DNA of 23,912 nucleotides from a virus. The stretch is from the IMG/VR virus record IMGVR_UViG_3300041955_000038, positions 1-23,912 of that record; one strand, given 5' to 3'. Shown one piece after another: positions 2,548-23,230 of this stretch; within the stretch, counting starts at the first letter, position 1, and each line of letters opens with the position of its first letter. The translations under genes were made by a program, and so were the position numbers. The notes below the pieces were generated by a model. It was not told the DNA's origin. It saw only the letters and a program-made list of their open reading frames with translations, and did not search any database.

Positions 2548-2894
2548 GCAGGCTTCGCGGCCGCCCTGATCACGCCGGTCCACTCGTAAAGCACGCTGCC
2601 ATCGGCCAGCGTCACGATCAGCCAATCGATATAATTGCCGGGCGCGATCGCCGCCGTGACGCTCGCCGGCACGGTGACAAGGATCAGCGCGCAGGATGCG
2701 TCAATGATCTGGATGCCGCCAACTATAGCGTTGTCGCAAGCAGCAACATTGGCTATGCCGTCCGCGCTATCCAGCCGCCACTGTATCGTCGCGCCGGTGA
2801 GATTGAGCGGGCAGCCGCGCGCGTCTTCCAGCGGCCCGGTATATTCCCACGTCGCGCCGCAGATTTCGTTGATCGGATGATGCGTGGTTGTCAT
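2544..2894 (-). CDS. Small beta-sandwich tail accessory protein, BppU N-terminal-like
   Basis: The 116-residue protein starts MTTTHHPINEICGATWEYTG and continues with PLNLTGATIQWRLDSADG, GIQIIDASCALILVTVP and PGNYIDWLIVTLADGSVLYEWTGVI. This order (interaction strand, LTGATIQWRL, then GNY.DWL...DG) is typical of short immunoglobulin-like domains attached to phage baseplates and fibres, such as the N-terminal domain of BppU-type proteins. That is a fold-level inference. The start at 2894 makes an ATGA overlap with the tryptophan-repeat gene, so the two are probably translated together. A longer in-frame start exists upstream but would lie wholly within that gene. Confidence 0.6.
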   Translation of the reverse strand: MTTTHHPINEICGATWEYTGPLEDARGCPLNLTGATIQWRLDSADGIANVAACDNAIVGGIQIIDASCALILVTVPASVTAAIAPGNYIDWLIVTLADGSVLYEWTGVIRAAAKPA

Positions 2895-4090
2895 GGCCGC
2901 CCTTTGATGAAGTGACCGGATCGCCCGATGATCCGCTTCGGGCCGGATCGACCATGGATATATCGCGCGGCCAGCGGTTCGCGCTCGCTGACGATCAGCA
3001 ACGAATTGATAAGGATCGCCGCAGCATCGGGCGCACCAGGCCAGAACGCATCCTGCGCCGGCGCCGGCCACCACAATGATCCGGAGAATGGCGCAGTCAC
3101 CGCCGGTGCGGAGAGGGCGCCGATCGGCGCGGTGGCACGCCAAGCCCAATAAGGCCCTTCGATCGCCTCGCGATGCCATGACGATGCGATGAACGGCGCC
3201 GCGGACGACAAGAACCGCGCGCGTTGCGCCGAAAATATCCAAGGCAGCGCTTCGGCAAGATCGTGGTGCCAACGCACGGCACGCGCCGGGCCAAGATCGG
3301 TAAGAAGATCGGCCAGCATCGCGCTTGATAGCGGCTGCCACGCCCATGGCGGACCTTCAGACGAAAAATCATAGCGCCAGAATTTGGTCGGGACTTCGCC
3401 ACTCTGCCCATAGAAAAACTGCGCCGCCGGCAGGCGAATAGAAACCGAATTGACTGGCGATCCCTGCCACTTCGGCAGCTGATCGTCAAAATCCCAGCGC
3501 CACAGCTTCGCCGGCGCCTGGCCGCCGGCAGTAAAGAATTTCTGCGCCGTCAGCAAGCGCAGCGGCGCTGCGCCCGCAGCCGCAGCCTGCGGAGCGGTTT
3601 CGATCTGATCAAAGCGCCAGCGATAGAGCGGCGGCCGCGTTGCGTTGCCAGTCGCCAGCGCGAGATTATATGGCGCCGTATTCCACGCCGGCGCGACGCT
3701 ATCGCCGATCGTCAGCCAATGCGGCGTCACCCCTTGGCCGCCGGCACCTTCGATCGCCTGTGCCGTCAGCAGCGGAATTGGCGCTGCCGCGCCAGGACCG
3801 CCCTGCCATTGCGGGAATTCGATCAGATAATCGCAGCGCCAGAACTTCGCTGACACGCTGCCGCCGGCGGTAAAGAAATGCTGCGCCGTCAGCAGCTGGA
3901 TCGGCGCCGCGTCATTCGGCGCGCCCTGCCATTTCGGCAGCTGGTCGTCAAAATCCCAGCGCCAAAGTTTTGTCGGCACCTGGCCGCCGGCGCCGAAGAC
4001 TTCCTGCGCCGTCAGCAACGACAGCGGCGCGCTATTTACAGCCGAACCGATCCAGATTGAATCCGGCGGCGGATTAGGGACGTAGACCAT
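2891..4090 (-). CDS. Tryptophan-repeat protein of unknown function, probable fibre or tail accessory component
   Basis: I do not recognise a named family for this 399-residue protein. It is made mostly of units of about 31-41 residues with the core [FL]WRxDFDDQLPKWQGAP. Clear units lie at residues 30-70, 71-111, 184-224 and 225-265; weaker ones contain HWLTIGDSVAPAW, YRWRFDQIETAPQ, VRWHHDLAEALPW, SWHREAIEGPYWAW and LWWPAPAQDAFWPGAP. The C-terminus (RSGPKRIIGRSGHFIKGRP) is strongly basic. The same repeats occur in the 674-residue gp48 fusion at 8942-10966, at high DNA identity. The flanking genes are a LamG-like protein and a beta-sandwich protein, which suggests a virion surface role. There is no signal peptide. 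Confidence 0.75.
   Translation of the reverse strand: MVYVPNPPPDSIWIGSAVNSAPLSLLTAQEVFGAGGQVPTKLWRWDFDDQLPKWQGAPNDAAPIQLLTAQHFFTAGGSVSAKFWRCDYLIEFPQWQGGPGAAAPIPLLTAQAIEGAGGQGVTPHWLTIGDSVAPAWNTAPYNLALATGNATRPPLYRWRFDQIETAPQAAAAGAAPLRLLTAQKFFTAGGQAPAKLWRWDFDDQLPKWQGSPVNSVSIRLPAAQFFYGQSGEVPTKFWRYDFSSEGPPWAWQPLSSAMLADLLTDLGPARAVRWHHDLAEALPWIFSAQRARFLSSAAPFIASSWHREAIEGPYWAWRATAPIGALSAPAVTAPFSGSLWWPAPAQDAFWPGAPDAAAILINSLLIVSEREPLAARYIHGRSGPKRIIGRSGHFIKGRP
3296..4003 (-). repeat. Tryptophan-repeat array in the 399-residue protein (6 units here, 3 weaker ones downstream)
   Basis: Units 1 and 2 (4003-3881 and 3880-3758) are each exactly 123 bp, as is the unit at 3541-3419. Between 3757 and 3542 the units are degenerate and of unequal length, and after 3418 they fade further while keeping a W...P.W pattern. 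The spacing of the leading tryptophans (residues 43, 84, 125, 158, 197, 238, 274, 305, 340) is 41, 41, 33, 39, 41, 36, 31 and 35. Confidence 0.85.
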
Positions 4091-4101
4091 TGCTCATCCA
4101 C

Positions 4102-4911
4102 TCACATGAAAACGAGTGGCTGAACGAAAGGAGTGGCTGCAGCACCGCCGCTCGCCCCTTGCGAGAACCAAGCCGGACGCATTGTGCCAGCGTAGGGATG
4201 CCAGAAGGACCAGGGGCTTTGCCCCCATTGGTAAAGTTGTGGGATAGATAGATAGTTCGACGCGTACATAAACCTTGCGATTGGGCTAGTCGATGCTGCG
4301 CCAGCACCGCCAGGGTCCCCAATCGTGACATAATTATTGCTGGCAGGAAACGCGTTCGTATTGGTGGCAGATGAAGTCCAAATTTGTCCGGTTGCCAGAT
4401 TACGAAGAACGAAATTAACGCCAACGCCGCTAAGACAACTCGCCGCACAGAAATAGGGCTGGCCAGCGATCAAATTAGGGATGCTGCTTGCTACCATCCC
4501 GCCGCTGCTACCGTAGTAAACGCCAAGGGTGCCAGCTGAGAAATATAAACCGAAAGACGGAGGGAACGGTGATACAGCCCCATTGCCAGCCCAACCGAGA
4601 CTCCCCGCCGCGCCATATTGGACTATACCCGCAAATGTGCTTCGCGATTGCGGAAAATTTGGAATGGCGTTGGGGTATGAGATGCCAGTATTGCCAGCCG
4701 CCGCAAAGGCGGTCGTTGGCCCGATAAGGCTGCTGACGCCCAATGTTGGCGCAGTCGAATATCTGGTTGGCGCGACGGGCGCTGTAAGCTGCAAAAAATC
4801 CTTTCCCAGCGCTACCAGCGATAAACCGAGATTTTGCGAGGCCGGATGCGACCAATCAATCCCCGGTGGTGTACCCGGATAGACCAGCGAAGGCCGTTGA
4901 ATGATGGTCAT
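4102..4911 (-). CDS. LamG/concanavalin-like phage structural protein, possible receptor-binding component
   Basis: The 269-residue protein looks like a jelly-roll (LamG or concanavalin-like) domain. Visible parts are FAGIVQYGAAG near residue 93, FGLYFSAGTLGVYYGSSGG, NFVLRNLATGQIWTSS, and the typical ending SPIARFMYASNYLSIPQLYQ followed by SPWSFWHP, which corresponds to the common phage pattern of a last strand, a short helix and a PW..F.P motif. Such domains bind sugars on fibres or capsid decorations. Two 120-nt samples in the gene are 57-58% GC against about 63% elsewhere, which fits a recently exchanged module. The start at 4911 gives a TGATG overlap. The final 30 residues are low-complexity. 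Confidence 0.6.
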   Translation of the reverse strand: MTIIQRPSLVYPGTPPGIDWSHPASQNLGLSLVALGKDFLQLTAPVAPTRYSTAPTLGVSSLIGPTTAFAAAGNTGISYPNAIPNFPQSRSTFAGIVQYGAAGSLGWAGNGAVSPFPPSFGLYFSAGTLGVYYGSSGGMVASSIPNLIAGQPYFCAASCLSGVGVNFVLRNLATGQIWTSSATNTNAFPASNNYVTIGDPGGAGAASTSPIARFMYASNYLSIPQLYQWGQSPWSFWHPYAGTMRPAWFSQGASGGAAATPFVQPLVFM

Positions 4912-5411
4912 CAGGCATTCGTGTACTGGGTGACGTCGGCGCGGCTGACGACTTGCGTCGCATTGAGGTTGACGCCGGTGTTGTGCACGATGAACACGCC
5001 GTAATTCGCCGGCATGTGACCGCCGAAGAATTGTGCCACGTCAACGCTGAACGGATAGACGCGATTGCTGGTGCTATCGACGGTGATACAATCCACCAGC
5101 TTGAACGCGCCCGCGTTCAACACATTGGTCGAGGTGATGGTGAACGCACCCTCAGAGCCGGTAATCACATCAGGATAGGTCGGCGTGCCGTCGAGACACG
5201 ACCACAAATAGACATTGATCTGCGTGCCTGCGGTCGGGCTTGTTCCGGTCTTGAGCAGCCCGGTGATCTTCTCCGTGACTGAAAGATTTGTGCCGTTGGC
5301 GATGACAGCCGACGACCATCCGGCCAGCAGATTTGTATCACTCGCCAGCGAATCTAGATGTGTGACTGTTAGCGCGGCGGACGAGCCGTATGACGGCTTG
5401 AGGGTGGTCAT
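4911..5411 (-). CDS. Hypothetical phage structural protein
   Basis: The 166-residue protein is acidic to neutral, rich in Thr, Ser, Asn and Val, with no signal peptide or cysteine cluster. It has alternating beta-strand-like segments (INVYLWSCLDGTPTYPD, NRVYPFSVDVAQFFGGHMPA, NYGVFIVHNTGVNLNATQVV) typical of virion beta proteins. The last of these reads like a closing strand pair of a small jelly roll. The start ATG overlaps the upstream stop by one base (TAATG). It is coupled to the LamG-like gene downstream, so a role in the same fibre or decoration complex is plausible. No family recognised. Confidence 0.55.
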   Translation of the reverse strand: MTTLKPSYGSSAALTVTHLDSLASDTNLLAGWSSAVIANGTNLSVTEKITGLLKTGTSPTAGTQINVYLWSCLDGTPTYPDVITGSEGAFTITSTNVLNAGAFKLVDCITVDSTSNRVYPFSVDVAQFFGGHMPANYGVFIVHNTGVNLNATQVVSRADVTQYTNA

Positions 5412-5935
5412 TAGCTAAGCCCCGCGTTGTTCAGATAACCAAGGCCGATTGACGGGCCGTAGTCATTCGCCTGCGACCACGGGATTGTCGTCGCGGCGAG
5501 CGCGAGCAATCCGTCATGGATGGCCTGAGTGAATCCGGTACTTCCCGGCGTCGCGGTTTCCTGCGCCAAGATGGCGTCAGCCATGCCCTTGACGATGGCA
5601 TAGGTTGTGGAATTCGACGTTCCGAACGGTGGCACATTCGGCAGCGTCAACAGCGCCATGAGCGTCTTGGCCGCGCCTAAAGCAGTGTCATGCGTTGCAT
5701 TGCCGGTGGGTGCGCCTTGGCTAAATGCCGCAAGCGTCAGGTAGGCGCCGGACAGCATCAGATTGCCGACGACGGCCTCCACTGGAACGTCCACGGTGCC
5801 GGCCACGGTCCAGCCGTTGATGGCATCGAGCTTCTGCGCTGTTGTCATCTGCGCAGTCAAGCCAGTCCCGGTCACGCCGGCCGGCGGCTGCGTGGCATTA
5901 TTCCACGCTGCGATCAATGCATCATAAAAGGCCAT
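5411..5935 (-). CDS. Hypothetical phage protein, alanine-rich helical
   Basis: The 174-residue protein begins MAFYDALIAAWNNATQPPAG and is rich in Ala, Thr and Leu with predicted helices (TTAQKLDAINGWTVAG, TALGAAKTLMALLTLPNVPP, TYAIVKGMADAILAQETATP, AIHDGLLALAATTIPW). The pattern INGWTVAG..VDVPV resembles small proteins encoded beside tail fibres, but I cannot name the family. A good ribosome binding site (GAGGTAAGG) lies just before the ATG. The TAATG junction couples it to the next gene. No membrane segment long enough to be confident is present. Confidence 0.55.
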   Translation of the reverse strand: MAFYDALIAAWNNATQPPAGVTGTGLTAQMTTAQKLDAINGWTVAGTVDVPVEAVVGNLMLSGAYLTLAAFSQGAPTGNATHDTALGAAKTLMALLTLPNVPPFGTSNSTTYAIVKGMADAILAQETATPGSTGFTQAIHDGLLALAATTIPWSQANDYGPSIGLGYLNNAGLS

Positions 5936-5939
5936 AGCC

Positions 5940-6275
5940 TTACCTCAAAAGCAGATTGGGAACGATGCTAGGATCGGCGCAGGGGACAGCCTGCCCCATC
6001 AAGAAGATCGTGAAGCCGTTGGCGCCGCTCCAGCAGCTATCGCAGATCGGCGGATCGGTTCCGTCATCTGCCATCATCAATCGCGTGCGCAGCTGGCCGC
6101 GCTCGCGGATCGATCGCTCCTGCTGTTGCGCCGGATCGAACTTTTCCAGGCACCAGCGGCAGGTGTTGCGCGAACCGAGATCGGCCGCGCGTGTATCGGC
6201 GACCGACTGCCGCGGCGCGGCTTCCACCGGGAAGAACATCTGCGCGTTGCGTTGCCCTGCGGGAACTTCATTCAT
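5940..6275 (-). CDS. Small CxxC protein, predicted zinc finger, unknown function
   Basis: The 111-residue protein contains a pair of CxxC motifs, CRWC near residue 47 and CDSC near residue 88, separated by a charged helical segment (EKFDPAQQQERSIRERGQLR). That arrangement suggests one zinc-binding site. The start at 6275 is chosen because AGGGA lies about eight bases upstream and because a longer reading frame would run through the hairpin and the next gene. It follows the hairpin at 6303-6329, so it may head a separate transcript or be read through from upstream. The hydrophobic C-terminus (GFTIFLMGQAVPC) is unusual for a zinc finger. Confidence 0.55.
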   Translation of the reverse strand: MNEVPAGQRNAQMFFPVEAAPRQSVADTRAADLGSRNTCRWCLEKFDPAQQQERSIRERGQLRTRLMMADDGTDPPICDSCWSGANGFTIFLMGQAVPCADPSIVPNLLLR

Positions 6276-6296
6276 GGCCGATCCCTCACTTGCTTG

Positions 6297-6329
6297 AAAA
6301 ATGCCGGCGGCCTTTTCCATGCCGCCGGC
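6297..6329 (-). terminator. Possible Rho-independent terminator hairpin
   Basis: A perfect 9-bp inverted repeat, GCCGGCGGC and GCCGCCGGC, with a 9-nt loop occupies 6303-6329. On the minus strand it is followed by ATTTTC, a short and weak U-tract. It lies in the 80-nt gap between the 171-residue gene and the 111-residue CxxC gene. It may terminate, attenuate or simply stabilise the transcript. Confidence 0.5.
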
Positions 6330-6355
6330 AGCTACAATGGCCGAAGGAAAGCCGC

Positions 6356-6871
6356 TTACAGCGACTCGTAGATCATGTGCGCGCCGATCGCGCCGGGCGT
6401 GCCGCCGGTGAAGGCGGACAACGACGCTTCGCCCAGCGACGCGGTGTTGCCCAGGACGGCCGGGCATTCCTCGACTTTGTTGGCACGCCAGAAATACACG
6501 CCGCCGAAGGCGTTCAGCGAGCAGTTCAGCAGATGCAGCGTGGACGAACGCTGCGGCTTCGTGGTGGCGTTCGAATTACCCGTGATCGCTGGCGCGCCCA
6601 GCGCCGCGGTCGCCGGATCGAGCGGCGCATCGGTCTGGCCGGTGCCATCGGAGTTCGTGCCGGTTGCCACGGTGGAATCGCGGGCCAGCAGCATGAAGGT
6701 GGGCGACGAAGACGACGCCGCCTGCCCCGAGATCGAAAGTTCGTGGATGCGGTTCAGCTGCGAGCTCGAACCACCCTGCAGCAGGAACGGATAGGTCGCG
6801 TCCACCAGGTTCGCGGTGTCCGCAGTCGCGGTCGGCGTGATGGTGGTAACCGACACAATGCGTCTGGCCAT
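6356..6871 (-). CDS. Hypothetical phage structural protein
   Basis: The 171-residue protein starts MARRIVSVTTITPTATADTA and is rich in Ser, Thr, Ala and Asn. It contains SSQLNRIHELSISGQAASSS, an apparent beta-strand array, and LNAFGGVYFWRANKVEECPA in the middle. The composition suits a virion decoration or fibre-associated protein. GGAG eight bases before the ATG supports the start. It is bounded on both sides by non-coding gaps with hairpins (80 nt downstream, 113 nt upstream), unlike most genes here, so it may be expressed at a different level. No family recognised. Confidence 0.55.
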   Translation of the reverse strand: MARRIVSVTTITPTATADTANLVDATYPFLLQGGSSSQLNRIHELSISGQAASSSSPTFMLLARDSTVATGTNSDGTGQTDAPLDPATAALGAPAITGNSNATTKPQRSSTLHLLNCSLNAFGGVYFWRANKVEECPAVLGNTASLGEASLSAFTGGTPGAIGAHMIYESL

Positions 6872-6943
6872 TTAGGGCTCCATCTTCAGAGAGGAATGGC
6901 GCGTCATGCGCCGATTGCCTTGCCCAAGGGCGTTCGGGCGGCT

Positions 6944-6984: not shown

Positions 6985-7341
6985 TCACGGCCGGATGATG
7001 GACGGCGCCGGCTTGTTCTTCGCCGCGGCGTTCAAGAAGTCATCGATGACTTGCTTGAACGGCACGTGCACATAGCCGGGCGCAACCATCGCCGCGCCGC
7101 AGCCGTCGCACACGTAGTGATCGCACTGCCGGCACCAGGCGCGCTCGCGCTGCCGGTTCGGATTGATGACCACGATGGCCTGGCAGTGCGAACAGGTCAG
7201 CGTCGGCGCTTCCAGCGTCATGCCGCGGCCGACCGGCATATTGGGCGCAAGACCGGCAGCAGCGAGATCGGCGGGCGCAAAGCCGGGACTGTCCGCGTGG
7301 TCGATCTTCAAATAACCTTCCTGTTCGCGTTTGGAAAACAT
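6985..7341 (-). CDS. Small zinc-ribbon protein, unknown function
   Basis: The protein (118 residues from the ATG at 7341) has three CxxC motifs within about 30 residues: LTCSHCQ, WCRQCDHY and VCDGCGAA. This is enough for one or two zinc sites in a compact ribbon. The N-terminus FSKREQEGYLKIDHADSPG is charged; the C-terminus ends NKPAPSIIRP. A GTG at 7347 is a real alternative start: AAGGG lies five bases before it but eleven before the ATG. It sits between the tail fibre gene and a structural gene. Zinc ribbons of this kind occur in phage regulators and in virion proteins; neither is shown here. Confidence 0.55.
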   Translation of the reverse strand: MFSKREQEGYLKIDHADSPGFAPADLAAAGLAPNMPVGRGMTLEAPTLTCSHCQAIVVINPNRQRERAWCRQCDHYVCDGCGAAMVAPGYVHVPFKQVIDDFLNAAAKNKPAPSIIRP

Positions 7342-8941: not shown

Positions 8942-10966
8942 TTACGGTGTTCCAGCAAACGGGCCGCCGGCGGCGAGGCCGCTATAGTCGAAGACGATCT
9001 CCGTATGCGCGGGCTTGATGCGCGTCAGCAGACAGTCGAGATCTGTGGCGATGCCGATGCGCAGCATCGGATCGACGCCGGCTTGCCCCGAACTGGCGCG
9101 GAACCAGGACAGCCGCGCTTGCGCGATGCTGGTGGTCCAGTAGAAGCGCATTTCCGGCGGCCCGATCTGCCAGCGAGGCGAGCCATCGTTGTCCGGATTT
9201 TGTGCCGTCGTATCGCCGCAGCGCGACACGCCGCACATGAACGGCGCATATTCCTTGATCGTGATTGCGTAGCCTTCGCGCGCGGCCTGCGCGGTCATGA
9301 AGGCACGCGACTGCGCGCCCAGCATGGTCATCTTCGCGACCAGGGCCTTTTGCCGATCGGCAACCGTGAGCGGTTCGGCCAGACATTCATCCGGCAGTCC
9401 CCACGCCTTTTCCCAATCGGGCAGCAGGATCACGGTCTGCCGCGGATCGCTTTCGTTCACCAATAAGCGCGCCGCCAGCACCTCGACTTCATCGCCCCAA
9501 ATCTGCGCCAGGCCCGCCAGCACGATCTGCAGCACGTGATCCGGTTCGCGCGGCCATGCTGGACCAGTGGGCAAAAGCCCGGACCACGCCAGCGCATATT
9601 CCGCGCCGGTGCGCTGCACCCATTGATCGCCCCGCGCTTCCAAAGGCGATACCGGAGGCGGCGCCGGCGTAGGCGTGTTGCTGCCGGCCGGTTCTTCGGT
9701 CGCCATTGGCAGCGTCGCCAGAACGATCGGCGCGCCCTGCCATTTCGGCAGCTGATCGTCAAAATCGTAGCGCCAGAATTTGATTGGCGCCTGGCCGCGC
9801 GCACCGAAAAATTCTGTGGTCGCCGGCATCCGCAGCGATGCTGCAAGAAGCGGATCGCCCTGCCACTTCGGCAGCTGATCGTCAAAATCGTAACGCCAGA
9901 ATTTTGTCGGCGCCTGGCCGCTAACGCCGAAAAACTTACCTGGCTCAGGAAATCCCGCCGTCGCTGCCCTTAGCGGCGCACCCTGCCATTGCGGGAATTC
10001 GATCAGATAATCGTAGCGCCAGAATTTCGCCGGCGCCTGGCCGCTTTGATCGAAGAACGTTGCCGCTGCAGGCTGCAGCATGGCCGCCGCGATTTTCGGC
10101 GCGCCCTGCCATTTCGGCAGCTGATCGTCAAAATCGTAGCGCCAGAATTTTGTCGGCGCCTGGCCGCCAGCGCCGAAAAACTTTGCAAAATAAAGCAGGG
10201 CGAGCGCGGCCGCGCCATGCGGCTTCGGCCGCCATATCGGGTCCGGCACTGCAGCTTCGTCAAGCGATACCCACTGCGGAACAACAAACGGTTCAGCCGT
10301 GGTGTAAATGACGATGATGCAGCCCGGCGCGCCGGCGCCGCCCGCGGAATTGACGCAACTGCTAGGAGGGCCGCCGCCGCCGCCGCCAGCACCATAGTTG
10401 GCGGCGGCGGAGCCGTTGCCGTTCGTGCCGCCGCCGCCGCCGGCGCCCGGACCTGCGTTGCCGCCTGCGGTTAGCGTATAGGACGGCGTACCTGCGGTTC
10501 CGGGAGCTCCGCCAACTAAGACGGAACAAATATTTTGGCCCGGCCCACCTATGCCGCCGGGCGTTGAGAGGCCAGGCGCGCCGCCGCCGCCGCCGCCGCC
10601 AGTCCCGCCGCACAGATTGGATGTGCCGCCAGGCGACCCAGCGACGATGTGCGATCCCACGCACGCCGCCGGCGACGTCGATTTCGAAGAAGCCAGAACG
10701 GTTGTGGGCGAACCGAACCAGCAGGGATTGCTCGATCCGCCCGCTGGAATCTGGATCGCGACGCTGCCCGACGACGGCAGCGTCAATCCGGAGATAGAAG
10801 CAACGCAGCCCGACGCGCCGCCGGCGCCGCCAACAGAGCCGCCAGCAGACGAAGGCGCGCCGTTATCGCCAGCGCCCCAGCAGATGATCTGTGCGCTCGC
10901 GCCGTAAGCATCCGGCGGCGGTGTCCACGAGGTGCCGGATAGGATGACGACAGTTTTAGTCGTCAT
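8942..10966 (-). CDS. Fusion of glycine-rich fibre-tip domain, tryptophan repeats and Mu gp48/YmfQ-like baseplate domain
   Basis: The 674-residue protein has three parts. Residues 1-225 form a glycine-rich domain (TVVILSGTSWTPPPDAYG...CWGAG...GGGGG runs...CIIVIYTT), of the kind found at receptor-binding tips of phage fibres. Residues 228-425 contain one weak and four strong tryptophan repeats. Residues about 447-674 match the gp48/YmfQ (DUF2313) family: LLPTGPAWPRE, LLVNESDPRQTVILLPDWEK, AWGLPDECL and REGYAITIKEYAPF. YmfQ proteins are usually near 190-200 residues and stand alone just after gp47. Here the reading frame is continuous through all three parts. An internal ATG at 9706 could start a free gp48 domain but has no good ribosome site. 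Confidence 0.85.
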   Translation of the reverse strand: MTTKTVVILSGTSWTPPPDAYGASAQIICWGAGDNGAPSSAGGSVGGAGGASGCVASISGLTLPSSGSVAIQIPAGGSSNPCWFGSPTTVLASSKSTSPAACVGSHIVAGSPGGTSNLCGGTGGGGGGGAPGLSTPGGIGGPGQNICSVLVGGAPGTAGTPSYTLTAGGNAGPGAGGGGGTNGNGSAAANYGAGGGGGGPPSSCVNSAGGAGAPGCIIVIYTTAEPFVVPQWVSLDEAAVPDPIWRPKPHGAAALALLYFAKFFGAGGQAPTKFWRYDFDDQLPKWQGAPKIAAAMLQPAAATFFDQSGQAPAKFWRYDYLIEFPQWQGAPLRAATAGFPEPGKFFGVSGQAPTKFWRYDFDDQLPKWQGDPLLAASLRMPATTEFFGARGQAPIKFWRYDFDDQLPKWQGAPIVLATLPMATEEPAGSNTPTPAPPPVSPLEARGDQWVQRTGAEYALAWSGLLPTGPAWPREPDHVLQIVLAGLAQIWGDEVEVLAARLLVNESDPRQTVILLPDWEKAWGLPDECLAEPLTVADRQKALVAKMTMLGAQSRAFMTAQAAREGYAITIKEYAPFMCGVSRCGDTTAQNPDNDGSPRWQIGPPEMRFYWTTSIAQARLSWFRASSGQAGVDPMLRIGIATDLDCLLTRIKPAHTEIVFDYSGLAAGGPFAGTP
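9692..10183 (-). repeat. Four tandem 123-bp repeats encoding the 41-residue tryptophan unit
   Basis: Units lie at 10183-10061, 10060-9938, 9937-9815 and 9814-9692, each exactly 123 bp. The protein core is KFWRYDFDDQLPKWQGAP in units 1, 3 and 4 (with small changes) and KFWRYDYLIEFPQWQGAP in unit 2. Leading tryptophans are at residues 275, 316, 357 and 398. A weaker unit precedes them at residues 230-261 (QWVSLDEAAVPDPIWRPKP). Confidence 0.9.
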
Positions 10967-10969
10967 CGC

Positions 10970-11260
10970 TTACCGTCCCGGTTCTGGCAGATTTACGATA
11001 TGCGTTCCATCGACCAGCGCGCGGATCGCGTGCTGGCGTCCTTTCGGAAATTCCACAAAGCTGCCGGCCTCCACGATCGCGGACTTGCCCGCATCGTCAT
11101 AGATTTCGCATCGGCCGATCAGCACGCAAGTCGAATGAAAGAACGGATGGACGTGAAGCGGGATTTCATCGCCCGCCTTGACGAAGCGATAATGCGAAAC
11201 CCTTTGCGAGCGCCCATCCGGCAGCGTGGTCATGAACGTTGCCGTGACCGGGAGGGCCAT
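10970..11260 (-). CDS. Small single-domain cupin protein
   Basis: The 96-residue protein is essentially one cupin barrel. Motif 1 is seen as GDEIPLHVHPFFHSTC (His36, His38) and motif 2 as GSFVEFPKGRQHAIRAL (His78). The usual glutamate of motif 1 is absent; His42 lies near its place. Cupins bind a metal and can be enzymes, sugar isomerases or binding proteins, so the substrate cannot be told. The start at 11260 gives a one-base TGATG overlap; the TTG at 11263 is less likely. It lies between gp47-like and gp48-like coding parts, where Mu has nothing. Confidence 0.75.
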   Translation of the reverse strand: MALPVTATFMTTLPDGRSQRVSHYRFVKAGDEIPLHVHPFFHSTCVLIGRCEIYDDAGKSAIVEAGSFVEFPKGRQHAIRALVDGTHIVNLPEPGR

Positions 11261-11484
11261 CAAAATTCGACCTTGTTCGCCGGCGTAGTGGGCGCGGGCG
11301 CCTCATCCTGCACCGGCGGCGCAAAGCCTGTTGCCGGATCATAGGTCCAGTTTTCGTGACAGCCGTCCGGCGCATCGATCCATTTCGCATCGGCCGGAAA
11401 TCCGGACGGCTTCGGATCGATCGTCGCATCCGCCATCAACACGGCAGCGATGCTGTTGTCGGCAAGGATGACGGCGGCGGGCAT
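11260..11484 (-). CDS. Hypothetical small phage protein (74 residues)
   Basis: The protein reads MPAAVILADNSIAAVLMADA at its start, then DPKPSGFPADAKWIDAPDG, NWTYDPATGFAPP and a proline-rich tail ending in NKVEF. The pattern of a short beta-hairpin start followed by W.YDP.TG.F is common in small proteins next to tail fibres, including fibre assembly chaperone-like ones, but there is no firm family match. It lies 9 nt after the baseplate J gene and overlaps the cupin gene by one base, so all three should be co-translated. It may pair with the cupin. Confidence 0.6.
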   Translation of the reverse strand: MPAAVILADNSIAAVLMADATIDPKPSGFPADAKWIDAPDGCHENWTYDPATGFAPPVQDEAPAPTTPANKVEF

Positions 11485-11493
11485 CGGCGGTTC

Positions 11494-12618
11494 TCATGTG
11501 TAAGTGACGTTGCCAAGCACGGCCATCGATCCGTTGTTTGGCATGACGAAATCCGCCATCGTCAGATCGAAATAATCCACGTCCGGCGTGTTCAAGATCG
11601 CGTCGCTGACCCATGCCGAATAGATCGTGGTGGGCGGGATCAGGACGCCGTTGAGCGACGAAGACGGCGCCGCCTTCGCCGCCAGCATTGCCGCGATGCT
11701 GGCGTTGATCGCCGCCTGCGTATTGGCATCGCTTTGCGAAAGATCGCTGATCGTGCAGTTCAGCGGCGCCGGCAGCGGCGGCTCGACGAAGAAATCCTTG
11801 ATCGAAACCGGGCGCAGGTTCGACATGAAGGCCAGCACGTTCGCCACATCGGCATCTTCCGGGAAGCCGCCGCCGTGGCCGCGGCCGGCGCCATCGATCG
11901 TCAGCGGCCCGGCGTTCTTTTGATCCATCATGAAGCGAACAGTGATGGTGCCGATGCCCATTTCCTGCGGCGCGCACCAGGCCCGCGTGACGCCGGGGAA
12001 GGATAGCGCCCACTGCACATAATCGAACGCGTCGCCGCCCATCGGCGGTTCGCGGATGCGATCCAGGACGCGCACGCGCAGTTCATCGTCGGTTTCCGCC
12101 GGCGCGCCATCTGACAGCACGGCGATCGTCGCCGTGCCCGATAGGCCCGGAACCACGCTGGCGAGATTGAGAACGGCGGCCGCCGTCAACAACGTTTGGC
12201 CTGGCGTCAGCGCCGCGATCGGTGCCGGCGTCGGCGCGCCGCCAAGCGTCACGGCCTGCGTTGTTTGAACAGCGATGGTCTTAGAACCGACCTGCACGGT
12301 ATAAAGCGTTCCCGCCGGCACCAGTGTTAACGCAATGCCTGTCAGCAGCGCCGTGCCGGATGCAAAGTTCGCCGGTTTCCTTCCGCCTAGCCAGATATTT
12401 CCGTACCGGTCAAGCCACTCTTTCTCTGCCGTGTCCGGCATCAATTGTTTGGCCAGCCACGATAGGTAGAGCAGCGTCAAATATGCCAAGCCGGCGTTCG
12501 CATCAGACATGACGCGAAGCACGCTGTTCGGGATCATTGGTCCCGACCGCAGCTTCGCCTGAACGTTGTCGCGATTGAGCGCGCGCAACGCTTGGAGAGT
12601 TCGCGTCTGCCAAGGCAT
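11494..12618 (-). CDS. Baseplate J-like protein (Mu gp47 homologue)
   Basis: The 374-residue protein fits the baseplate J / gp47 family, a wedge component joining hub and fibres. Typical features are the N-terminal helical part (PNSVLRVMSDANAGLAYLTL, LMPDTAEKEWLDRYGNIW), the central G.A.LTG..L..VPAGT segment, and the signature DDELRVRVLDRIREPPMGGD followed by YVQWALSFPGVTRAWCAPQE. The C-terminal part includes KDFFVEPPLPAPLNC. Length is close to Mu gp47. GAGGAA about ten bases upstream supports the ATG. It follows the gp46-like gene after 15 nt, as in Mu. Confidence 0.9.
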   Translation of the reverse strand: MPWQTRTLQALRALNRDNVQAKLRSGPMIPNSVLRVMSDANAGLAYLTLLYLSWLAKQLMPDTAEKEWLDRYGNIWLGGRKPANFASGTALLTGIALTLVPAGTLYTVQVGSKTIAVQTTQAVTLGGAPTPAPIAALTPGQTLLTAAAVLNLASVVPGLSGTATIAVLSDGAPAETDDELRVRVLDRIREPPMGGDAFDYVQWALSFPGVTRAWCAPQEMGIGTITVRFMMDQKNAGPLTIDGAGRGHGGGFPEDADVANVLAFMSNLRPVSIKDFFVEPPLPAPLNCTISDLSQSDANTQAAINASIAAMLAAKAAPSSSLNGVLIPPTTIYSAWVSDAILNTPDVDYFDLTMADFVMPNNGSMAVLGNVTYT

Positions 12619-20919: not shown

Positions 20920-21648
20920 TTAGACCGCGATGCGTTTTCGGAATTCATCGGGCATGTGCGCCCACTTGCGGCTGTTGCAGCTACGGCAAGCCGCAACGAT
21001 GTTATCGGGGCCGTTTGAACCACCGCGCGCGAGGGGGACGTAATGATCTTCGGTAGGTTCGACGCGTATATCGGCCGAACACCAAAAACAGCGATAGCTC
21101 TGTTTTGCAAGCTGGCGGTCAAAGTCGGCGCGGGTATGTGTGCCCTCCGCACCTAGTTTGAGCGCGCGGCGATTAGAAAAGGCAATCGGCGCCCACTTCT
21201 GCCGTGCCGCTTTCAACTTCTTCCGACCCGCCGCCGTCGATTTGAGCCGTTCATAGCGGCGCGCGGCACGCTTGGCCCTCGCCGCCGGGCTGCGACTCTC
21301 ATATTGAGCTACGCGATCCGGATGTGCGGCACACCAGGCGCGATTGCGTGCGAGGTGTTTCTCATATTCGACCGGATCGGCAAGTTGCCGGCGCTTGTAA
21401 TCACGGGACCATTTGCGATCGCGCTCACGGAAGGCTGGGTCCTTGCGGCGTTCGCGCACCGCGTCGGTTGCGCGTTTAATGAGCCAGCGGCGATATTTCT
21501 CATTCGTCGCGTATCTTTTTTTGGCGCGGATGCACCAACACGGCCGGCAGTAAGAGAGAAACTGTCCCAGCCGATCGCTTCTCTCGATGAAGCAACGAAC
21601 CGGCAGGGATTGTTTGCAAGCCGCGCAAATCTTATAACGACTGGACAT
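20920..21648 (-). CDS. HNH endonuclease, probable free-standing homing endonuclease
   Basis: The 242-residue protein has an N-terminal zinc finger (CAAC near residue 8 and YCRPC near 36), a long basic helical middle (many Arg/Lys, e.g. RDRKWSRDYKRRQLADPVEY), and a C-terminal HNH domain: CFWC at 187-190, DHYVPLARGG at 201-210, NIVAACRSCN at 216-225 and RKW. Cys187, Cys190, Cys221 and Cys224 bind zinc; His202, Asn216 and Asn225 fit the catalytic positions. The start at 21648 is chosen because a longer frame from 21744 would overlap the sheath gene. It interrupts the usual sheath-tube pair and is flanked by AT-rich spacer, which fits a mobile insertion. Confidence 0.88.
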   Translation of the reverse strand: MSSRYKICAACKQSLPVRCFIERSDRLGQFLSYCRPCWCIRAKKRYATNEKYRRWLIKRATDAVRERRKDPAFRERDRKWSRDYKRRQLADPVEYEKHLARNRAWCAAHPDRVAQYESRSPAARAKRAARRYERLKSTAAGRKKLKAARQKWAPIAFSNRRALKLGAEGTHTRADFDRQLAKQSYRCFWCSADIRVEPTEDHYVPLARGGSNGPDNIVAACRSCNSRKWAHMPDEFRKRIAV

Positions 21649-21700
21649 CGACCCAAAAGATAAGTTCGGCTTGCTTTTTTTGTCAAGCAAAAACCGCCGA

Positions 21701-23230
21701 TTACGACGTGCTAATCGGAGGGTATTCCAGGCGAAATTGTGCAAGCACCGCGAACTGGCGCAGCTGTCCAGCCAATTGGGGGGGCCACAATACGTTTACG
21801 CGATTGGGGTTATTGTCGTCAATTTCCACGATCAAATTGCTTTTGAAGTCATCCAGATCGGCCACCAGGCCGTCATACATGGCCAAGCCGAATTCGGAAA
21901 TCAGTTCCGCCTTGAGATCGGTAGGCGTCACAGCGGCCTGGCCGGGGCCAAGCTTCGTGCCATCCGGCACCAGCTTCACGCGCGGATATTTGGTGGTGAT
22001 CGCCGCGCGCATGCGTTTGAGCAATTCTTGCAGCGTCGCCAGCACCGTCAAGAGCCCGAACGCGGTATCGGCCTGGCCGAAGGAATTGAACTGATACTGC
22101 GTTTGCTCCGTCATGATCATGGGATTGCCATCAGGCGCGGTGGCCTGGATGGCAAGCCCGGAATTGACCAGGTTGTTCAGCTGCGTCAGCGAGAAGCGAT
22201 TCTGCGTCAGCGCCGGCATGATGCCGATCATTTCCAAAGTCTGCAGCGGCCGCGCCGGATCGTCACTAAAGCCTAGCGCCGCGAGCGCACAATAGGCGGC
22301 GCCCCATTCCCATACCGGCGAGGGCGCACCCTGTTCGATGACCATGGTCGACATGACCGGCGAATTTTGCGACAGCCCCCACTCCAGCGCATCGGCATAA
22401 TCGTCGCGGAAGGCGTTGACGATGAAGCCGTATTGCTGGCGAACGTAATTCCAGCGGCCGCCCGAACTGAAACCGTATTCGGTATTCCAGGAAGTCATGC
22501 TTGCGGTGTCGGTATAGGGCATCCCGACGTAATCGAATTCCTGCGTCTGGATCGCCGAAATGGCGTTGACGAAATTCGGTTCGCCCGTGCCACTCGCGAT
22601 CGGCGTGATCGCGTAAGCGACGCCGGCCGGCGTGACCTGGCCACCGTACAGGCCGAGATAGTTGACGATCAGCGTGATATCGTTGCCGGTGAGGCCCTTC
22701 CACTTACAGGTGAACAGCACGTCCGGGCTGTTCGTTGCCGCGAGTGCTGCCGTAACCGGCAGCGACGGAATAGCGTTCGCAGCCGCAACACAATTGGCCG
22801 CGATAGTTGCCGCCGTGTCAGTGGAATAGATCGTCCACTGCACCAATTGCCCGGCGATATAGAGCGAGAACACTCCGGACCCCGTGACCGATGTGCCGGC
22901 GAAATTGATGCCGCCTTCCGCGAAGGTGCCGGCGGACGGATCGGCGACGGGCAGCGCCCACAGTTCTTGCGTCACGTTCGAATTGAAGAACGCATAAACC
23001 ATGCGATAAAGCATCGAACCGACGCCGAACAGATTGCCCGCGAGCGCGAGTGATCCGACCGGAACCGCGACATTCAGCGTTGCCGTGCCCGCGGCCGCGC
23101 CGGTGGTGAACATCTGTCCCACCAGTAGCGCCGGCCCGACTTCCGTAAGATTGCCAGCGCGCGTGCCGTCGACCGTCGCCCAGAACAGCGGCAGTTTCCA
23201 ACTTTCCGGGATGGTAGTGCTGATCGCCAT
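21701..23230 (-). CDS. Contractile tail sheath protein (Mu gpL-like)
   Basis: The 509-residue protein fits Mu-type sheath subunits, which surround the tube and contract at infection. Recognisable points are PESWKLPLFWATVDGTRAGN near the start, GPALLVGQM, WKGLTGNDITLIVNY, the conserved FDYVGMPYTDTASMTSWNTE, then GRWNYVRQQYGFIVNAFRDD, SPVMSTMVIEQGAPSPVWEW and DDPARPLQTLEMIG. The C-terminal part has TTKYPRVKLVPDG and FKSNLIVEIDDNNPNRVNVL, the usual end. Length is close to Mu gpL (495). A GGAGG site lies five bases before the ATG. Confidence 0.94.
   Translation of the reverse strand: MAISTTIPESWKLPLFWATVDGTRAGNLTEVGPALLVGQMFTTGAAAGTATLNVAVPVGSLALAGNLFGVGSMLYRMVYAFFNSNVTQELWALPVADPSAGTFAEGGINFAGTSVTGSGVFSLYIAGQLVQWTIYSTDTAATIAANCVAAANAIPSLPVTAALAATNSPDVLFTCKWKGLTGNDITLIVNYLGLYGGQVTPAGVAYAITPIASGTGEPNFVNAISAIQTQEFDYVGMPYTDTASMTSWNTEYGFSSGGRWNYVRQQYGFIVNAFRDDYADALEWGLSQNSPVMSTMVIEQGAPSPVWEWGAAYCALAALGFSDDPARPLQTLEMIGIMPALTQNRFSLTQLNNLVNSGLAIQATAPDGNPMIMTEQTQYQFNSFGQADTAFGLLTVLATLQELLKRMRAAITTKYPRVKLVPDGTKLGPGQAAVTPTDLKAELISEFGLAMYDGLVADLDDFKSNLIVEIDDNNPNRVNVLWPPQLAGQLRQFAVLAQFRLEYPPISTS

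Follow-up and report, generated by a model that had tools for sequence, protein, structure and literature searches.

A stretch of 23,912 nucleotides from an uncultured virus (referred to here, at its full length, as the window) contains a gene in which a Gly_rich_2 domain and four tandem tryptophan-rich repeats (W-repeats) are joined in frame to a baseplate wedge protein of the Mu gp48/YmfQ type. The repeats belong to a large and apparently undescribed family of tryptophan-rich repeat proteins in uncultured phages, whose members vary in unit number and are encoded in a cassette together with a zinc-ribbon protein and a 171-aa beta-sandwich protein. This conserved, probably structural cassette occurs at no fewer than 121 loci of uncultured viruses, yet is represented neither in Pfam nor in PHROGs nor in about 50,000 sequenced phages, and its absence from databases has so far left no foothold on its role. 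The fusion of W-repeats to gp48 provides a natural clue to location, as it suggests that the repeat proteins reside on the tail or baseplate of the virus, and makes a direct test possible.

A baseplate wedge protein with tryptophan-rich repeats

The 2,022-bp frame of the fused gene (Table 1) is unbroken. The encoded 674-aa protein scores 31 bits with PF21722 (Gly_rich_2; Pfam cutoff 24.3) and 66.2 bits with PF10076 (Mu gp48, matching residues 464–662; curated cutoff 37.4), and its C-terminus matches the baseplate wedge family phrog_203 of PHROGs at 1.7e-53. The C-terminal 217 residues represent a clear member of Mu gp48/YmfQ, being up to 41 % identical to the proteins of annotated phages and sharing the same neighbour, gp47. 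In annotated phages, however, gp48 is a separate gene: it overlaps gp47 at its end or follows it almost without a gap, its product begins with the gp48 domain itself, and the protein has a usual length of about 195–240 aa without any N-terminal module. The window protein does not fit this pattern, since it possesses about 440 extra N-terminal residues comprising the Gly-rich domain and the W-repeats. Likewise, gp47 and the gp48 domain do not directly adjoin in the window, but are separated by a gap of 527 bp including a cupin ORF, followed by the N-terminal extension. The cupin ORF (97 aa; 10970–11263, minus strand; PF07883, 5.8e-7) occupies the place between gp47 and the fused gene where annotated relatives have no gap.

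The fusion is known from two near-identical contigs only. The second contig (L004) is 99.94 % identical over 9,361 bp and carries the same fusion, with the frame intact in both records, so that a simple assembly error is unlikely; it also harbours the same four units, so that variation within this virus was not visible. Among the 79 closest gp48 relatives on viral contigs (48–59 % identical; 42 of them with at least 3.5 kb of downstream sequence), neither a repeat fusion nor a W-repeat ORF nor the cassette was found in any. By inspection, the upstream extension of the gp48 frames in three loci (L277, L280 and L238) proved to be an overlapping open frame rather than a domain.

In the window, Gly_rich_2 is followed by W-repeats and gp48, and in a further virus locus (L152) by W-repeats alone, without gp48. 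Gly_rich_2 probably has an adhesive role. The gp38 proteins of T-even-like phages are polyglycine-sandwich adhesins, and the Gly-rich region and the tail-tip context suggest that the window protein may have a similar use; the gene order differs from that of the gp38 adhesins.

Table 1 Coordinates of the features in the window
Feature	Position	Strand	Remarks
Fused gene, 674 aa	8942..10966	-	Gly_rich_2 domain, four W-repeats and gp48/YmfQ baseplate wedge domain; single open frame
Gly_rich_2 domain, residues 11-221	10304..10936	-	PF21722
Mu gp48/YmfQ baseplate wedge domain, residues 446-662	8981..9631	-	PF10076 and phrog_203
Repeat unit A1	10061..10183	-	
Repeat unit A2	9938..10060	-	variant core YDYLIEFPQWQG
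Repeat unit A3	9815..9937	-	
Repeat unit A4	9692..9814	-	
Second repeat protein, 399 aa	2891..4090	-	five scored units and degenerate ones
Repeat unit B1	3881..4003	-	
Repeat unit B2	3758..3880	-	YDYLIEFPQWQG variant like A2
Repeat unit B5	3419..3541	-	
Repeat unit B6	3296..3418	-	
171-aa beta-sandwich cassette protein ("MARRI")	6356..6871	-	44-84% identical homologues; AlphaFold2
Zinc-ribbon cassette protein, 120 aa	6985..7347	-	conserved cysteines
gp47 baseplate J protein	11494..12618	-	normally followed directly by gp48

Two repeat arrays in the window

Array A (9692–10183) consists of four head-to-tail units, which start at residues 262, 303, 344 and 385 and are spaced by exactly 41 codons, bearing out an earlier note on this DNA that had described four units of exactly 123 bp. 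At an offset of 41, the 165-aa region shows 70 residue matches, as compared to 27 in the best of 10,000 shuffles (all offsets from 20 to 59). The single core which the note assigned to all four units is present in units 1, 3 and 4 only (KFWRYDFDDQLPKWQG), whereas unit 2 reads KFWRYDYLIEFPQWQGAP / KFWRYDYLIEFPQWQG. The proposed contrast between a constant core and a variable tail holds at the DNA level: cores A1, A3 and A4 are 85–93 % identical with 2–4 synonymous changes per about 25 shared codons, versus an identity of about 44–50 % for the 12-residue tails, which look saturated.

A 20-mer pointed out in the earlier note occurs in array A in two exact copies and a third with one mismatch. Further matches with 2–3 mismatches at positions 3479 and 3941, where none are expected by chance, revealed the second array (B) in ORF 2891–4090. 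Units B1-B2 share 82 % DNA identity with A1-A2 over about 200 bp, with the core types in the same order, and the cores of A1 and B1 are 87 % identical with two synonymous changes in 24 codons. Whole-unit duplication alone would not account for the contrast between cores and tails together with the likeness of A and B cores; judging from the few sites concerned, copying or conversion of core segments combined with selection would. The earlier note had noticed neither array B nor the fusion to gp48 nor the gene cassette.

Each of the two repeat proteins of the window scores about 139 bits with a profile of the window's repeat type (R1) built from all relatives (W-R-x-D...W-x-G-x-P, several tandem units). 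The 2891–4090 protein has an N-terminus of the form YVPxPxxDxxWxG, which matches the standalone relatives L007, L008, L018 and L025 and is absent from the fusion protein. Its gene is located on the same strand downstream of the 171-aa and zinc-ribbon genes, with further genes intervening, whereas the fused gene is found upstream of these two. Judged by its standalone-type N-terminus and its place downstream of the other cassette genes, the 2891–4090 protein is the canonical cassette member, and the gp48 fusion a derived form.

Repeat family in uncultured phages

Relatives on uncultured viral contigs were gathered with two degenerate DNA motifs and a query made from an alignment; the profiles built from these recruits were then also run on loci that the neighbouring 171-aa gene had brought in. 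Searches of viral and genome contigs with single proteins either remained without a match or returned no more than the near-identical virus or the contig of the query itself. Overall, 21 distinct proteins of type R1 (including both window proteins and the near-identical L004 copy) and 19 distinct proteins of the sister type R2 ("DWPNPRG") were identified. R2 proteins (L011, L012, L013, L015 and L016) resemble R1 in the shared cassette, the FFGAxGQxP lead-in, the alternation of long and short units and the richness in W and P; they differ in the core, which is DWPNPRG...LRTW in R2 and WRYDYDD..WQGAP in R1. The two profiles match over 11 columns with a score of 18.3 (20 shuffled controls, ≤7.2), a result which is supporting only, since part of that motif had served to recruit the R2 seeds. 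A search with the motif WxxxYDDxxxW gave 14 matches: three known members, one new member (L025) and a remainder of non-members.

The family proteins contain 2–15 scored units, and near-identical tandem duplications (97–99 % match) are found in L150. There is no fixed number, in line with the earlier proposal of a modular repeat able to grow or shrink. A tandem array at the DNA level is present in 6 of 31 genes. The positions of W, R, D and P are conserved across very different phages. The repeats of most members are not preceded by any domain; those of L005, L016 and L177 follow other long N-terminal regions, that of L016 weakly resembling a minor tail protein (2e-3).

Profile and sequence searches of Pfam, PHROGs and PDB sequences returned no match to the repeat, which places it in no well-described family, in line with the earlier note, which had not recognised one, and no description of it was found in the open-access literature. 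A set of 50,697 phage genomes does not contain the repeat either, and tblastn of the repeat proteins against phages and plasmids gave no repeat homologue; while repeats may be hidden by the low-complexity filter of BLAST, the non-repetitive 171-aa protein is likewise missing from the phage records. The expectation of related prophages was not supported: the relatives all derive from viral contigs, none of 113 matches from a motif scan of GTDB genome contigs was confirmed by profile, and the 171-aa gene gave only one weak and partial match in about 1,180 bacterial genomes (class and phylum sets around a Mesorhizobium genome and a phylum set around an acidobacterial one), the positive control matching four out of four virus records. 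The family seems to be carried by phages and to be scarce in, or missing from, bacterial genomes.

Three-gene cassette

All 12 independently recruited repeat loci (L005, L007, L008, L010, L011, L012, L013, L015, L016, L018, L019 and L025; the protein of L007 is that of L010) adjoin a 171-aa gene, and a zinc-ribbon gene is also present at 11 of them; both genes occur in the window. A reverse search with the 171-aa alignment yielded at least 121 uncultured viral loci, 80 of which were kept. The zinc-ribbon gene is present in 78 of these 80 and a W-repeat ORF on the same strand in 43. In 42 of the latter, the repeat ORF is located 11 bp to 4.2–4.3 kb downstream of the 171-aa gene (within 30 bp in 13 cases); the 43rd is the window copy (L145) with the fused array upstream. 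The remaining 37 loci, in which no repeat gene was detected, do not count as true negatives: about ten end within 1.2 kb, and W/P-rich ORFs of other types are present in several (L178, L199, L203, L204 and L212). The W/P-rich repeat ORFs of L199, L203, L204 and L212 lie 3' of the 171-aa gene and were missed by both profiles, so that the family extends beyond R1 and R2.

The cassette neighbours a Mu-like tail in the window, terminase and portal genes in L005, a terminase gene in L016 and a major capsid gene in L013; it hence occurs in unrelated phages. A search of 50,697 phage records did not retrieve it.

Proposed role of the repeats

Wedge protein 3 of the Mu baseplate is gp48, with one copy in each of the six wedges; the fibre, gp49, is held by the fibre docking loop of gp48 (PMC11915804). 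From the fusion we infer a placement of the repeats on the baseplate, and we consider it reasonably likely that the fused protein adds W-repeat arms to the baseplate at the fibre-docking site, with the cores acting as binding sites. The fusion protein would be produced and incorporated into the baseplate by way of its gp48 domain, such that each of the six wedges would carry an extra N-terminal arm at the fibre-docking periphery. The repeats would form an extended string with the Gly-rich, probably adhesive, domain at its tip, and the W/Y/D/P cores would represent repeated binding sites and not mere filler, the number of units setting both the length of the arm and the number of sites. The standalone 2891–4090 protein most likely acts alongside it in the same virion, representing the ordinary form without fusion. 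If true, this would account for a frequent class of W/P-rich repeat proteins annotated as "hypothetical" and reveal a route by which phages lengthen or multiply their surface appendages.

The cores may bind the 171-aa protein, a host surface sugar or each other, and genetic linkage and the tracking of subtypes favour docking to the 171-aa protein. In the tree of this protein, all 21 R1 loci fall inside one 24-row clade (support 100), and the R1/R2 subtype requires one change on this tree versus three on the zinc-ribbon tree. The tracking of the subtype with the beta-sandwich protein offers a concrete binding hypothesis, according to which each W-repeat core would be a linear motif binding the 171-aa protein, many copies of which would be strung on the virion. 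This possibility, compatible with W-repeat arms on the baseplate, is put forward tentatively. It would fit the joint occurrence of the repeat and 171-aa genes (12/12; at least 43/80), although genes of the same operon are co-inherited even without contact of their products.

Structure predictions point in the same direction, with the repeats appearing unstructured on their own and the candidate partner folding confidently. For the four repeat units, AlphaFold2 predicted neither a fold nor secondary structure (28-row alignment, mean pLDDT 37); the beta-solenoid or tryptophan-caged modules envisaged in the earlier note are not supported, this pLDDT being weak evidence either way owing to the shallow alignment. 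The 171-aa protein was modelled as a beta-sandwich (pLDDT 92, pTM 0.87). Its Foldseek matches in the PDB are jelly rolls at E 1.6e-3 and weaker (none at E ≤ 0.001), a weakness that speaks against docking; they include ExsF, the structure of which has been solved with an anchor peptide. The best viral fold matches of the model are uncharacterised phage proteins with a TM-score of about 0.6. A TNF/C1q-like jelly roll is a candidate fold for the 171-aa protein.

A more far-reaching picture, which we regard as speculative and probably not correct in full, is that of a widespread three-gene virion module without a counterpart in cultured phages. The W-repeat protein would form a ruler-like string, whose cores would dock the co-encoded jelly-roll protein and whose unit number would set the number of copies displayed, and in the present virus a second string would have been welded to the fibre-docking baseplate protein.

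Alternatively, the repeats might merely keep the Gly-rich domain off the baseplate, their sequence being of little importance. The varying unit number, the lack of a predicted fold and the position of the array between two folded domains would agree with such a passive spacer; however, W, R, D and P are kept across very different phages while the adjoining 12 residues change freely, and the absence of a domain ahead of the repeats in most family members also renders this explanation rather doubtful. A fresh recombination accident, producing a fusion of little function with gp48 translated from an internal start, is quite improbable: while the fusion is unique to this virus as compared to the 79 gp48 relatives and the A and B cores are unusually alike in DNA (A1-B1, 87 %), as fits recent copying within the genome, the frame has no interruption and is preserved in both records, the architecture of the front part recurs in L152, and the fully diverged spacers indicate that the array is not brand-new.

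Further sequence features

Within the window, an inverted repeat of about 33 bp (7029–7061) was detected by self-BLAST in the 3' part of the zinc-ribbon gene, and an ORF between the tail tube and sheath genes (20920–21744, minus strand; 274 aa) was judged by eye to be HNH endonuclease-like. Among the cassette loci, L205 contains the 171-aa gene in two tandem copies (5461–6507). In L005, TPR-repeat and methyltransferase-like ORFs, likewise judged by eye, are located between the cassette and repeat genes (4806–6880) and perhaps relate to modification of virion or surface sugars. Loci L156 and L157 (IMGVR_UViG_3300031708_000019) are two identical stretches of 12,513 bp in opposite orientation at mirror positions of a 63,512-bp contig, probably reflecting an inverted-duplicate assembly or large inverted repeats.
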